Shown here: piece by piece, positions 24,979 through 29,955 of the stretch
Numbering within the stretch: the first letter of the stretch is position 1
Layout: the number at the start of each line of letters is the position of its first letter
The notes under the pieces: generated by a model
The model's database searches: none
What the model was told of the DNA's origin: nothing
What the model saw: the letters and a program-made list of their open reading frames with translations, nothing else
Made by a program: the position numbers and the translations under genes
Assembly: GCF_019633745.1 (NCBI RefSeq)
Contig: NZ_CP037968.1
Coordinates: 1,060,789 to 1,124,788, forward strand
Direction: 5' to 3'
Length of the DNA: 64,000 bases
Origin: Methanofollis formosanus
GTDB taxonomy: Archaea > Halobacteriota > Methanomicrobia > Methanomicrobiales > Methanofollaceae

Positions 24979-25614
24979 ATGATCTGTGGCGTCGACGAGG
25001 CAGGAAAGGGCGCAGTCTTTGGTCCCATGGTGGTGGGAGTCGTCGGGTGCGAGGCCGAAGAGGACCTCCCCGCTGGGGTGCGGGACTCGAAGGCCCTCAC
25101 CCCCAAACGGCGGGAGGCGCTCTATGCCGAGATCACGGGGTCGTTCCCCTGGCGTGTGGTCGAGATCCCGGCGGCCGAGATCGATCGCCTCAGGCAGGAG
25201 ATGACGATGAACGACCTGGTGGTCAGGGCCCATGCCGAGGCGGTCAGAAGCCTGGGGGCCGGACAGGCCTTCCTCGACGCCTGCGATGTCGACGAGGAGC
25301 GGTACCGCTCGAAGGTCGCCGCCCTTGTCGGAGACGGCTGCGAGGTTGTCGCCCGTCACCACGGCGACGCCCTCTTCCCGGTGGTGAGCGCCGCAAGCAT
25401 CGTCGCCAAAGTAACGAGGGACCGGGCACTCGAAGACCTCAGGGTTGAGTATGGTGCGATCGGGAGCGGATACCCCTCGGACAAAGTCACGATCGCCTAT
25501 CTCAAGGACTATATCGCGGGACACGGCACCGCCCCCATTTTCGCCCGCACGAGCTGGGAGACCGTGGCCCGGCTCTTCGACCGGCGGCGGCAGACGAGTC
25601 TCGGCGATTTTTAG
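24979..25614 (+). CDS. rnhB: Ribonuclease HII
   Basis: RNase HII removes single ribonucleotides and RNA primers from DNA. The N-terminal ICGVDEAGKGAVFGPMVVG holds the catalytic Asp-Glu pair. FLDACDVDEERYRSKVA and VSAASIVAKVTRDRALEDL supply the remaining acidic residues. GSGYPSDKVTIAYLKDY is family-typical. ATG 24979 gives 211 aa, normal for archaea; the frame is open further upstream without support. Its stop overlaps the 3' end of the converging membrane gene by 4 bp. Confidence 0.96.
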   Translation: MICGVDEAGKGAVFGPMVVGVVGCEAEEDLPAGVRDSKALTPKRREALYAEITGSFPWRVVEIPAAEIDRLRQEMTMNDLVVRAHAEAVRSLGAGQAFLDACDVDEERYRSKVAALVGDGCEVVARHHGDALFPVVSAASIVAKVTRDRALEDLRVEYGAIGSGYPSDKVTIAYLKDYIAGHGTAPIFARTSWETVARLFDRRRQTSLGDF

Positions 25615-26681
25615 GGTGTAAGCACCGGGGCCACCCAGCCGGTGAGCACGATCAGCACCCCGGTGAGGAGGGTGATCAAGAGGAGCAGGGTGATCGTCCT
25701 GACGGTTCGGTGCGGGTAGAGTTCAGACCGGCGCAACCGCCATAATCGCCCTCTGTCGGTGTAATAGGACGCGATGACGAGAGAGACCATGGCCGCGGCC
25801 AGCGTCCCGGCAAGGGCGTGGTAATACCCTCCCGGACCGGTCTGCCCCGGATAGCCGACTTCGGCGACCGCAACCCCGGCGCCGGCCAGGACCATGAGCA
25901 TCCCGACAAGGGTCTCCCGCTCCGATCCCTGCGGCAGCATGCCGCGGGACGACGCCCGGTTGTGGCTGTACGCGAGGAGGGCGATGCCGAGGAGGGCAGG
26001 GATCCAGTGGAACATGGGGCCCCGGCCTCTGGTGGTCGACGGCGGGAGAGAACCGGGTGTCGGCGAGACGGTGGGCCGGTCCTCCTCCCAGCTCTCATTC
26101 TCAGGTCGATCGTCCTCTTCGACCGGGAGGGATGGGAGCGGATTCACTCCCCCGCCGCCTCCCGGCCCCGGGGGCGACGGAGGACCGGGGATCTCGGTGA
26201 GGAGATAGGTGACCTCGAAGGAGATGGCATCCCCCTGGGCGTCGTTCTGGGGTTTGTAGATCTCCTGAAATTCCCAGTGCCAGGTGAGGTTTACGCTTTC
26301 CCCGGCATCGAGCCTGGAGATCCCGATCGTATTCCGGTCGTCAGGCCCGTGCGGGAAGGCTGCAAGGTTCGCCGGGAACGTTACTCCGCTCTCCAGCCGC
26401 TCCCCCGAGAGAGTGAAGAAGAGGTAGCGGCCGAGGGCGGCGCCGTCACCACCGCCGTCGCTCTCGGTGAGGCCGCTCACCCAGAGGGAGAGGGTGCCGG
26501 GTCTGCTCCCGGCGTTTCTGAGGGTTACGACGGTCTCCCCCTCCTCTCCGGGTTTAATCCCTTCCTCATTCCAGGAGAGGGACGCCCCCTTGTCGACGAC
26601 CAGGTCGATCTCCGCGGCGAAGACGGGGGTCGCGAGGGATATGACGAGGACTGCGGCGAGGAGATATGTGGTGGCCCGCAC
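25611..26681 (-). CDS. Membrane-anchored surface protein with TasA/CalY-like domain
   Basis: An N-terminal signal peptide (TTYLLAAVLVISLATPVFA) leads to a domain of ~160 residues. In it EEGIKPGEEGETVVTLRNAGSRPGTLSLWVSGL and GESVNLTWHWEF recall the TasA/camelysin fold, in which mass-balance repeats of 'PG..G..TV.LRN.G' occur. A proline- and glycine-rich linker with PGPPSPPGPGGGGGVNP and acidic residues follows, then four or five membrane segments. GTG 26681 is chosen; it lies 2 bp after the upstream stop, so the gene is the fourth of the surface operon. Assignment to the TasA group is an inference from motif similarity. A role as an anchor for the filament is possible. Confidence 0.65.
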   Translation of the reverse strand: MRATTYLLAAVLVISLATPVFAAEIDLVVDKGASLSWNEEGIKPGEEGETVVTLRNAGSRPGTLSLWVSGLTESDGGGDGAALGRYLFFTLSGERLESGVTFPANLAAFPHGPDDRNTIGISRLDAGESVNLTWHWEFQEIYKPQNDAQGDAISFEVTYLLTEIPGPPSPPGPGGGGGVNPLPSLPVEEDDRPENESWEEDRPTVSPTPGSLPPSTTRGRGPMFHWIPALLGIALLAYSHNRASSRGMLPQGSERETLVGMLMVLAGAGVAVAEVGYPGQTGPGGYYHALAGTLAAAMVSLVIASYYTDRGRLWRLRRSELYPHRTVRTITLLLLITLLTGVLIVLTGWVAPVLTP

Positions 26682-26683
26682 GG

Positions 26684-28690
26684 TCAGTACCCTCCTGGCG
26701 TGTACCAGACGCGTACCTCCTGGAGGACCGGGGTTACAGTGGTGTCGTCTGTGGAGAGGTTTGCCCGCCACTGGAGGTAGCGCCTAGAGGGGAGATTTGT
26801 GCTTACCGGGGAAATGTTCCCTACCGGCGTCCAGGCAAGGGTCGCGTTGTTATATGAAAAGTTAGCGTTGGAGGCCCGCACCTCGAACGAGATATTGGTT
26901 TCTGCGGGGATGCTGGCAGTCCAGGCGAGGGAGTCCCACTTTGAGTCGTTGGCAGTGGTGTCCAAGACGTCTGAGGTGATGGTGCCGGGCGAGAGATAAT
27001 GGCCCCCCTCATACACCGGTGAGTAGCGACGGACGATGTGTTCGTCTCTGTAGCCAGACCATTTTTGAACAAAGAAACCAGTCTTACCAGAAGAAGGTGT
27101 ATCAGCAGGTAGATGAACACTTTTCAAAAGTGTATCATCGATATAGAGATCAGCCCGCTGCCCGAAGAGGCCGAGTTCCTCAGTATGCCAACCAGTTGCT
27201 CCTCCCGGCACTTCCAACGGTTCATCAAACCAGTGTTGACCCCCAACATAACCCTCGACCCAGGCTGAATTCTGCCAAGGGGGTTCTTTTTTGACCGGTC
27301 CAGAAATATAATTTTCACCATCTACAAACCGGGCAATGACACCTGCCCGGATTGTCTCTAAGAATGTAGAAGAAGGATCAAACTTGAATCGTTCCCTGAC
27401 AGCAACATCCGACCAATTCTGATCGTCCCGATAAAGATAACCCCGTTCGCCTGTATTATCGTCTATTCTCAGTACTTTGCTCCCTCCGTTATTTACTACC
27501 CTAACATCAAAATTTCCCTCCTTTGTCCATCCATTCGGGAAATTTTCAACAATGTAATCCTCAAAGTCATCATAGAAGAGGAAGGTAGCTTCTCCATCGC
27601 TCGCACTCTCTGCAGCATTATTCCTATAGTGGAGATAGATGGTCGTCCCGTCCGCAGGGATGGACGGCACCCGCACCCAGAAGACTGCAGAACCCAACAA
27701 GGAATAACCATCACACCAGTGTGGGAGGAGAGGGCCCGTGATATCATCCGTAAATCTGATGTCCCTAAAATCATGCTGCATACCCCATTGATACGGCACC
27801 TCGACCCTCACCTGATAGTCATCAAGTGCGACGTCGCCGGGGTTGGTGATGGTGATCGGCGCACAATATTTCCAGGTCCCACCTCCTGCAGCCATTGCAC
27901 CGCCGGGGGGGTCGTCGTCATCGGCGGAGACTCCGTCCGGTGTTTTAGAAAGGAAAAATCCCTCTGTGCTCTTGTTCTCTCCCGCAACCTCGATGGGATC
28001 GTCGTTGTCCCCTTCTTCCTCCCCTGCAGTGCAGTTGAGAGGTGATGCCTCACCGTCCCCCGACAGAGAGTCCACGGTGGTGAAGTTCGCGGCCGTTGCA
28101 TTCGCGCCGGCCGTCGCGACCGGAATGGATTCATGGTCCTGAAGTTCATTGGAAGTGGAAACAACTCCAGAGGTTTCACCGTTTCCACTCTCATTTTCAT
28201 CGACCAGATCATCCGGTACTTTCAAACTCCCTCTCTCTACATCCACCGACGAGGCGTTCAGGGCGGTCGCGTTCAAACCCGGATCACGATCCTGATCGGC
28301 GAACTGGTCTGGGGATGCATCACGATGATCCACATCCTGATCAAAAGCGGGCAGGACGGCATCGCCTCCCGCCGCGTACGACGTCGCCCCGGGTTCCGAC
28401 CAGGAACTCCAATAACCGGTCCCCACCGAGGCCATGGGTTCGACCGGTGTGCCGATACTCTCCGTGACCAGGGTCACATTCCCGGGCTGCGAGTTCACAT
28501 CGACATCTTCACGCACACAAACCTCAAAGTCATCCTCTGTCGTCCAGATCCGACACTCCGAGCACCACGCCTCGAAGGTGATCGGCCCGGTCTTCTCACG
28601 GTCAACAAAGACGCACCCACTCTCCCCGAAGGGGACAGTGCAGAGTGCAAGGGCGAGGAAAAAAAGTATAACCAGCCTGACGCCCCGCAC
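26684..28690 (-). CDS. Secreted DUF2341 / lectin-like surface protein
   Basis: The ~668-aa protein starts with a signal peptide (LVILFFLALALCTVPFGESGC). A long acidic, low-complexity region (~residues 60-260) leads to a DUF2341 domain: WKYCAPITITNPGDVALDDYQVRVEV, ending FWVRVPSIPADGTTIYLHYRNN. A concanavalin-like module follows (FYDDFEDYIVENFPNGWTKEGNFDV, then YRDEHIVRRYSPVYEGG). The C-terminal part, SKWDSLAWTASIPAETNISFEVR, resembles other archaeal surface domains. Start GTG 28690 is preferred; TTG 28702 directly abuts the sipW stop. Bases ~26990-27800 are visibly richer in A and T than the ends of the gene, suggesting a mosaic origin. It may bind glycans or neighbouring cells. Confidence 0.75.
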   Translation of the reverse strand: MRGVRLVILFFLALALCTVPFGESGCVFVDREKTGPITFEAWCSECRIWTTEDDFEVCVREDVDVNSQPGNVTLVTESIGTPVEPMASVGTGYWSSWSEPGATSYAAGGDAVLPAFDQDVDHRDASPDQFADQDRDPGLNATALNASSVDVERGSLKVPDDLVDENESGNGETSGVVSTSNELQDHESIPVATAGANATAANFTTVDSLSGDGEASPLNCTAGEEEGDNDDPIEVAGENKSTEGFFLSKTPDGVSADDDDPPGGAMAAGGGTWKYCAPITITNPGDVALDDYQVRVEVPYQWGMQHDFRDIRFTDDITGPLLPHWCDGYSLLGSAVFWVRVPSIPADGTTIYLHYRNNAAESASDGEATFLFYDDFEDYIVENFPNGWTKEGNFDVRVVNNGGSKVLRIDDNTGERGYLYRDDQNWSDVAVRERFKFDPSSTFLETIRAGVIARFVDGENYISGPVKKEPPWQNSAWVEGYVGGQHWFDEPLEVPGGATGWHTEELGLFGQRADLYIDDTLLKSVHLPADTPSSGKTGFFVQKWSGYRDEHIVRRYSPVYEGGHYLSPGTITSDVLDTTANDSKWDSLAWTASIPAETNISFEVRASNANFSYNNATLAWTPVGNISPVSTNLPSRRYLQWRANLSTDDTTVTPVLQEVRVWYTPGGY

Positions 28691-28702
28691 ACCGGATCCC
28701 AA

Positions 28703-29203
28703 CTACTCCCCCCCCTTTCCGACCTGTCGCAGGAGCGACACAGCCTCGGTCAGGAGGAGGAGACAGGCGGGGACGACGATCAACAGGACGAATCCCGGAG
28801 GGCTTCGGATAAAGTGGCTGAGATACCCGAGGAAGGGGAGATGAAGGACGACGACGCCGACCACGTCCTTCGCCGCCACCGTCGAGGGGTCGGGATCTTC
28901 GTTGGCGTCGCCCTTCGTCACGAAGGCACGCGGCGGGCCGGGGACGACCTCGACGACGCGGTGGGTGGTGAGGTGGCCGCCCTCACGGAAGGTGATGATC
29001 TCGCCCGCGCCGATCTCCGAGGCCGCCGCCGGCCTCGTGACCACCACCCCGCCGACAGGAATCGCGGGCTCCATGCTCCCCGAGAGCACGGTGTCCACCC
29101 GCCACCCCCCCATCGCCGCAAGGAGTATGGCACCCGCTGCCACGACCAGGAGCAGGAGGAGCACCCCCCGCCGCCCGGTCGGCGCCTTTCCTATTTCTGC
29201 CAT
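28703..29203 (-). CDS. sipW: SipW-type signal peptidase I
   Basis: The 166-aa membrane protease has the catalytic serine in VLSGSMEPAIPVGG. The base is histidine (HLTTHRVVEVV), and aspartates lie in GDANEDPDP, the Ser-His-Asp arrangement of archaeal/ER and SipW enzymes rather than the bacterial Ser-Lys dyad. One membrane helix precedes and one or two follow the catalytic domain. Such enzymes in bacilli process TasA and related proteins. The gene sits 30 bp downstream of the TasA-like gene, so the pair is a likely protease-substrate unit. Confidence 0.88.
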   Translation of the reverse strand: MAEIGKAPTGRRGVLLLLLVVAAGAILLAAMGGWRVDTVLSGSMEPAIPVGGVVVTRPAAASEIGAGEIITFREGGHLTTHRVVEVVPGPPRAFVTKGDANEDPDPSTVAAKDVVGVVVLHLPFLGYLSHFIRSPPGFVLLIVVPACLLLLTEAVSLLRQVGKGGE

Positions 29204-29233
29204 TGATCAGTTGTTTGCTGTGTGGGTCCGGTT

Positions 29234-29896
29234 TTACGGCTGTGGCTGTTTCAGCCTGAACGTGATGTTAAACAAACAACTGTCGCCCTGGACCTCGTTG
29301 CCGGTCTCAGGGGGGAGATCGTAGGAGATCCTGAAATAGCCAAAGGCAGAGTCTGCATCAGCAGTTTTGATATCGTCCCATGACCGATTTCCAAAGGTAT
29401 CCAGAGCATCATAGGCAGCCTCTGGGAGGTCTGGGTCCCCAGCGGAGTAATTTCGAATATTACCTGCACTGTCAAGGTACTGGTCTCCAGATTCCCATAC
29501 TCCATCATTATCCACATCAATCCAGAGAGCGACTCTCAGTTTATCTTCAAGTCCAACAGTGGAACCGTTCGTCATCTCTCCCTCAGGCTCAGTCGAAATA
29601 CCTTCGTCACCCGTCACCGCACCCATCGAGACATTGAAGATGCCTGCAATATTCCCGGTGTTACGCAGGGTCCAGTTGGCAGTGATGCCACTATCCCCGG
29701 GTTTGAGAGGATTAATAGTCACACTCTCGTTACAGGGGTCATACTGTCCAACCCACAGGTTCAGTGTCCCGGCCGTGAAGTTGTTATTCTGAGCCATCTC
29801 AACATCGCTGAAGTACGCGTACGTGCCCCCTCCGATGAAGAAGGCGATCAAAGCCATCCCAAGAGCCGTCAAAATAATTTTTTTCGTTTGATCCAT
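29234..29896 (-). CDS. TasA/CalY-like SipW-dependent surface protein
   Basis: The protein (220 aa) begins DQTKKIILTALGMALIAFFIGGG, ending TYAYFSDVE. This is the SipW-dependent signal sequence with the cut expected after TYA. The mature part, NNFTAGTLNLWVGQYDP and SITANWTLRNTGNIAGIFNVSM-like SGITANWTLRNTGNIAG, matches the TasA/camelysin fold. In bacilli TasA forms biofilm fibres. In archaea related subunits form bundling pili by donor-strand exchange. ATG 29896 is chosen because AGGTGAT lies 7 nt upstream. It heads a four-gene minus operon with sipW. Codons are more AT-rich than in housekeeping neighbours. Confidence 0.85.
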   Translation of the reverse strand: MDQTKKIILTALGMALIAFFIGGGTYAYFSDVEMAQNNNFTAGTLNLWVGQYDPCNESVTINPLKPGDSGITANWTLRNTGNIAGIFNVSMGAVTGDEGISTEPEGEMTNGSTVGLEDKLRVALWIDVDNDGVWESGDQYLDSAGNIRNYSAGDPDLPEAAYDALDTFGNRSWDDIKTADADSAFGYFRISYDLPPETGNEVQGDSCLFNITFRLKQPQP

Positions 29897-29903
29897 GGAT
29901 CCC

Positions 29904-29955
29904 ATCACCTAACATTTATATGTACGATCATAAGATATATTCAAATTATAAATAC
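29904..29955 (-). promoter_or_regulatory. Promoter and ribosome site of the surface operon
   Basis: On the minus strand GTATTTATAATTT (about 29943-29955) is a TATA-type box ~50 bp before the start. AGGTGAT (about 29904-29910) is the ribosome site. The rest of the 306-bp gap up to 30202 has no recognisable gene; ACTTTAATC near 30168 may be the TATA box of the next plus-strand gene. Confidence 0.5.

Follow-up and report, generated by a model that had tools for sequence, protein, structure and literature searches.

A cluster of four genes in the methanogen Methanofollis formosanus very probably encodes a filament system of the TasA/SipW type. The cluster lies in a stretch of 64,000 nucleotides (here called the window) of a genome of 2.97 Mb in a single contig, and it specifies a TasA-like subunit, a signal peptidase, a large secreted protein with a DUF2341 domain, and a membrane-anchored protein with a second TasA-like domain. 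An earlier note on this DNA had read these as subunit, signal peptidase, tip and base, and that plan was supported in the tests that were run, in that the gene set is conserved and the model of the proposed base matches the TasA fibre. What is new here is how the donor and acceptor parts divide among tip, subunit and base. On balance we favor the view that the system is complete, with a tip that would only donate a strand and a base that would only accept one.

The four genes, numbered 1 to 4 in the order just given, are closely packed as one operon on the minus strand (25611-29896), and all four of those that the earlier note had placed there were found (Table 1). Genes 1 and 2 are separated by 30 bp, while genes 2-3 and 3-4 abut, and a G-rich sequence resembling a ribosome-binding site lies upstream of genes 3 and 4. 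The ORF of gene 4 extends to 26771, but the true start of the gene is the GTG at 26681.

Table 1. Features of the four-gene cluster; positions are those of the window.
Feature	Position	Strand	Basis
Probable archaeal TATA box, TTTATAAT	29945..29952	-	~50 bp upstream of gene 1; inferred by eye only
Gene 1, TasA/camelysin-type filament subunit, 220 aa (putative donor and acceptor)	29234..29896	-	PF12389, TIGR04088, 8AUR profile match
N-terminal donor-strand segment and linker of subunit, YFSDVEMAQNNNFTAG	29768..29815	-	aligned to FNDI-KSKDATFASG of 8AUR; pattern F.D.E......F.A
Gene 2, SipW/Sec11-type signal peptidase, Ser-His-Asp	28703..29203	-	TIGR02228, NF046067, Sec11 chains, conserved catalytic residues
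Gene 3, large secreted DUF2341 protein, 672 aa (proposed donor-only tip adhesin)	26684..28702	-	DUF2341 8.7e-20; no TasA-core match
Donor-strand-like segment of tip, VFVDREKTGPITFEAW	28565..28612	-	F.D.E......F.A at residue 32, spaced as in subunit
DUF2341 domain of tip	27527..27772	-	residues 311-392
C-terminal module of tip (GTITS...DT...W...W...RYLQWRA...RVWY)	26687..26995	-	kept in aligned Methanomicrobiales tips and Chloroflexota L079, L101
Gene 4, TasA-like domain protein with membrane anchor, 356 aa (proposed acceptor-only base)	25611..26681	-	profile, fold and helix evidence
TasA-like acceptor domain of base	26187..26615	-	core model E=6.8e-7 from model position 2; donor model no match
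C-terminal membrane helices of base	25614..26012	-	model helices 226-245, 254-275, 283-307, 309-354

The subunit matches the Pfam family PF12389 with E=4.8e-15 (56.3 bits against a curated cut-off of 22.5) and TIGR04088, a model of the SipW-type signal, with E=1.4e-9 (37.8 bits, cut-off 19), in agreement with the earlier proposal of a SipW-dependent TasA-like protein. Its family profile matches the TasA fibre structure 8AUR at 2.5e-7 with the donor strand and the core both aligned, the alignment running from 8AUR residue 2 onward, i.e. from the donor strand on. Residues 28-38 of a TasA subunit are reported to be the donor strand that completes the next subunit in the fibre (PMC9674648), and the N-terminal segment of the Methanofollis subunit is, by this alignment, homologous to that strand. 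A predicted structure of the subunit, based on only 4 sequences, reached a pLDDT of 31 and was too poor to use; because the model failed for lack of alignment depth, the donor strand of the subunit rests on sequence alignment to 8AUR. No viral relatives of the subunit were found in a search of IMG/VR. The peptidase of gene 2 scores above the cut-off of the archaeal/ER-type model TIGR02228 (1.4e-27) and matches Sec11 structure chains (SEC11) at 3.4e-15; with the Bacillus SipW equivalog NF046067 it reaches 1.7e-27 and yet stays below the cut-off (96 vs 190). The conserved residues LSGSMEP...THR...GDAN provide the Ser-His-Asp set that had been predicted for this enzyme.

The proposed base begins with a signal peptide of conventional appearance, followed by a TasA-like domain, a linker rich in Pro and Gly, and some four membrane helices at the C terminus. 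Profile-profile comparison with TasA gave a probability of 97% (E=1.1e-10), and the homology begins just after the donor strand; the alignment to 8AUR, a weak match (E=0.6), starts at chain residue 11. Against PF12389 the protein scores 12.7 bits, below the curated cut-off of 22.5, which is passed by one Chloroflexota base. Most of the TasA-like domain was predicted well, with blocks mostly at pLDDT 80-92, and the best fold match of the model in the PDB is the TasA fibre 8AUR (E=5.6e-5, probability 1.00), with TM-scores (0.29/0.42) that are modest, one reason being that the model also contains the membrane helices. By profile comparison and predicted fold, the window base is a remote TasA/camelysin relative, which upholds the earlier claim of a membrane-anchored protein with a second TasA-like domain.

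The large protein of gene 3 had been described as a DUF2341 lectin-like protein; the DUF2341 part of this description stands, but a lectin or LamG-like identity found no support, the region after DUF2341 having no Pfam or PDB profile match. Near its N terminus is the pattern F.D.E......F.A, which occurs in only 2 of the 209 ORFs of the window, the subunit and the tip. The Methanofollis tips carry it at residue 28-32, as in the subunits, and when these tips were shuffled it appeared within the first 60 residues in 0-3 of 20,000 shuffles. The window tip and the subunit profile are aligned at the same place by hhalign, weakly (E=0.03, probability 1.7%); the tip has no significant match to the signal-plus-donor HMM described below (E=1.5) and none to TIGR04088. 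The putative donor strand of the window tip is thus indicated by a motif, without a significant profile match, and that motif could be just a recognition site for the peptidase. Archaeal tips have a Cys near the predicted cleavage site (Cys30 in the window, 28613-28615), which is missing from the Chloroflexota tips.

The subunit alignment was split at the end of the donor strand. One part gave a signal-plus-donor model, for which only subunits were used, and the other a core model; both models were searched against 14 tips and 14 bases. The donor model is significant, always at the N terminus, in the tips of three Chloroflexota loci (L100, 1.9e-15; L102, 1.2e-8; L101, 0.003), and it weakly matches the tips of L079, L059 and several others at the right place; the tips of the window, L013 and L058 gave no significant match, nor did any of the 14 bases. 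The L100 tip is independently matched by the public model TIGR04088 (3.5e-7, above cut-off). The core model matches all 14 bases (2.5e-9 to 1.1e-3), from its first positions in 13 of them and only at its end in the L102 base, and matches none of the 14 tips below E=0.5. A base with the TasA fold and without the donor strand can only accept a strand, and a DUF2341 protein with the strand and without the fold can only donate one; such a division of parts would determine the outward end of the fibre. It is this split, together with the swapping of tip middles described below, that leads to the reading of the three proteins as tip, subunit and base.

In the mechanism that we infer, the signal peptidase would cut the subunit near Y28 and the DUF2341 protein near V31, so that an F-x-D-x-E...F-x-A strand becomes free at the N terminus of both, and subunits would polymerise by placing the N-terminal strand of one into the groove of its neighbour. 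The base, as an acceptor, would tether the fibre to the membrane by its proximal end, and the DUF2341 protein, as a donor, would close the distal end and display there a variable, putative binding module, presumably for adhesion. The broader generalisation, that archaea and bacteria share a self-contained donor-strand filament in which polarity is set by domain content and the fibres end in interchangeable heads, seems to us as easily wrong as right.

Fibres might also be made with the fourth protein acting as a membrane assembly factor or chaperone, the fibres then being released or held in some other way. The TapA protein of B. subtilis has been described as a chaperone-like initiator, with fibres assembling from secreted subunits (PMC10151520), and the base retains the segment that self-complements monomeric TasA, so that it might never accept a strand. 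This alternative is nonetheless unlikely, because a TasA core without a recognisable donor strand, as found in all 14 bases, and C-terminal helices are as expected of an end piece. More doubtful is the idea that the DUF2341 protein has no place at the fibre end and is an independent surface protein with just the SipW-type signal in common. The Cys near the cleavage site could serve as an anchor in archaea, and it would fit this idea that TIGR04088 does not recognise the window protein, but the ESGC before Cys30 does not fit a lipobox, the Chloroflexota tips manage without the residue, and tip and base genes are adjacent across two domains of life.

An opposite polarity is improbable; in it the donor-only protein would nucleate near the cell, as some models propose for TapA, and the proximal end would not be the acceptor-only protein. 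The polarity of related filaments is described as unsettled (PMC9715654) and TapA is reported to co-localise with the membrane (PMC10151520), but in the present system membrane helices are found in the acceptor protein only and large variable modules in the donor protein only. We give almost no credence to a cluster that makes no filament and whose gene 1 product is a camelysin-like protease; the family name of PF12389, Peptidase_M73, would suggest such an enzyme, but TasA belongs to this family too, and among solved structures its fibre is the closest relative. The donor-only tip and acceptor-only base remain the preferred reading.

The complete four-gene set is found at nine loci. Four of these are in Chloroflexota, and the other five, in Methanofollis, occupy two different genomic sites. 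The window's gene order recurs at the same site in L012 and L013 and at the other site in L014 and L015, where the subunit shows only ~40% identity and the peptidase 57%. Loci on cut contigs agree, with tip then base in L016, L017, L019/L082 and L080 and with subunit, peptidase and tip in order in L058; in genome G108 these three genes are at the end of one contig, and the base lies at the end of a second contig. Among the Chloroflexota, L079 has the window's gene order, L100 has the peptidase first, and extra TasA-like proteins are present in L084 and L102. In the latter (L102:5084-11662, minus strand), two SipW-type peptidases and three TasA-like proteins are followed by a SipW-motif DUF2341 tip and a base. 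Wherever tip and base are both on uncut sequence the base comes directly after the tip, the sole exception being the deleted copy L085. L085, on a Dehalococcoidia contig that is a sister to that of L079, is the same site with a clean 3.4-kb deletion running from an early point in the TasA gene into the base gene, which may be either an operon loss or an assembly collapse.

The earlier note had raised the possibility that the genes lie together by chance in one genome; since the set is conserved in other Methanofollis and in Chloroflexota, chance adjacency was rejected. Nor is the cluster special to methanogens. The base protein was detected in 10 of 150 genomes of the host's order, one of them (L020) a weak match without a cluster, and in 3 of 301 Chloroflexota genomes; a stricter profile search found it in 9 of the 393 genomes of the host's phylum, 41 of which have PF12389. 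Related Methanofollis have an empty first site; in L111, rnhB and the gene for an M50 protease are 200 bp apart there. The conserved gene order, the distribution of the base and the empty site together argue that the set behaves as one accessory unit. The M50 protease and rnhB were rejected as parts of the system because they adjoin without the cluster in L111 and L109 and because the cluster is sited elsewhere in G033/G039. Between the two genes in L109, from a Methanofollis relative without the cluster, is a 115-aa ORF (L109:7438-7785, minus strand) with a weak signal peptidase match (8e-5 over 44 aa), which may be what is left of the cluster. A tree of base proteins neither supports nor opposes horizontal transfer between Chloroflexota and Methanofollis: the two groups separate cleanly in only 14% of its bootstrap trees, despite the 54% identity of the Dehalococcoidales base.

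The tips are similar at the N terminus and mostly constant in the C-terminal module, while the middle is exchanged: it is DUF2341 at Methanofollis site 1 and in L102, Kelch repeats in L058 and L059, an SGL/NHL-like propeller in L100 and His-rich repeats in L014 and L015, and it is almost absent in L019. The His-rich middles (tips L014:7244-8719 and L015:6489-7973) contain GGxENHTHT-like blocks that resemble histidine-rich tail-collar repeats and have no Pfam match. We know of no binding function for the His-rich or DUF2341 middles. Compared with L012, the window's peptidase is 93% and its base 76% identical, the subunit and the tip reach 52% and 47%, and flanking genes lie at 85-97%. The subunit gene (50% GC) and the tip middle (47-50% GC) are AT-rich in a window of 61% GC. 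These comparisons indicate fast change in the exposed parts but not in the machinery, which is what one would expect of a surface structure used for adhesion.

The nearest known system is the tapA-sipW-tasA operon of B. subtilis, which likewise combines a TasA-family subunit with a Sec11-like peptidase, SipW, and with a minor protein that only donates a strand and has the N-terminal motif in common (PMC9674648, PMC10151520). TapA differs from the tip in being a small Ig fold without a large exchangeable module (PMC10151520), and the available text of these reports describes no membrane-anchored TasA-core protein (PMC9674648, PMC10151520). No match to a TapA family was seen in Pfam or NCBIfam scans of the cluster. 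In archaea, the bundling pili of Pyrobaculum calidifontis (AbpA) are TasA-like donor-strand filaments (cited in PMC9674648, PMC10903470), and the Sulfolobus thread (Saci_0406/Saci_0405) is a donor-strand filament with a proposed donor-only cap, so that Saci_0405 joins TapA (PMC10151520) as a precedent for a donor-only terminal protein (PMC9715654). The thread differs in that its cap has a subunit-like fold and no acceptor-only base is named in the available text, where the polarity is stated as unknown (PMC9715654). The literature searched yielded no paper on Methanofollis filaments of the TasA/tip/base kind. How TasA-like and archaeal donor-strand filaments end, and with what polarity, is an unresolved question, and with end pieces that can be told from sequence it becomes directly testable. 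The system may also parallel chaperone-usher pili, in a form common to methanogens and Dehalococcoidia whose tip modules can be swapped. Other Halobacteriota clusters (e.g. L060, L061, L065, L073-L077) similarly place TasA-like proteins beside SipW-type peptidases, but in many of them the DUF2341 tip and TasA-core base are replaced by a long multi-helix signal peptidase together with a two-helix protein that appears, by eye, DUF5305-like.
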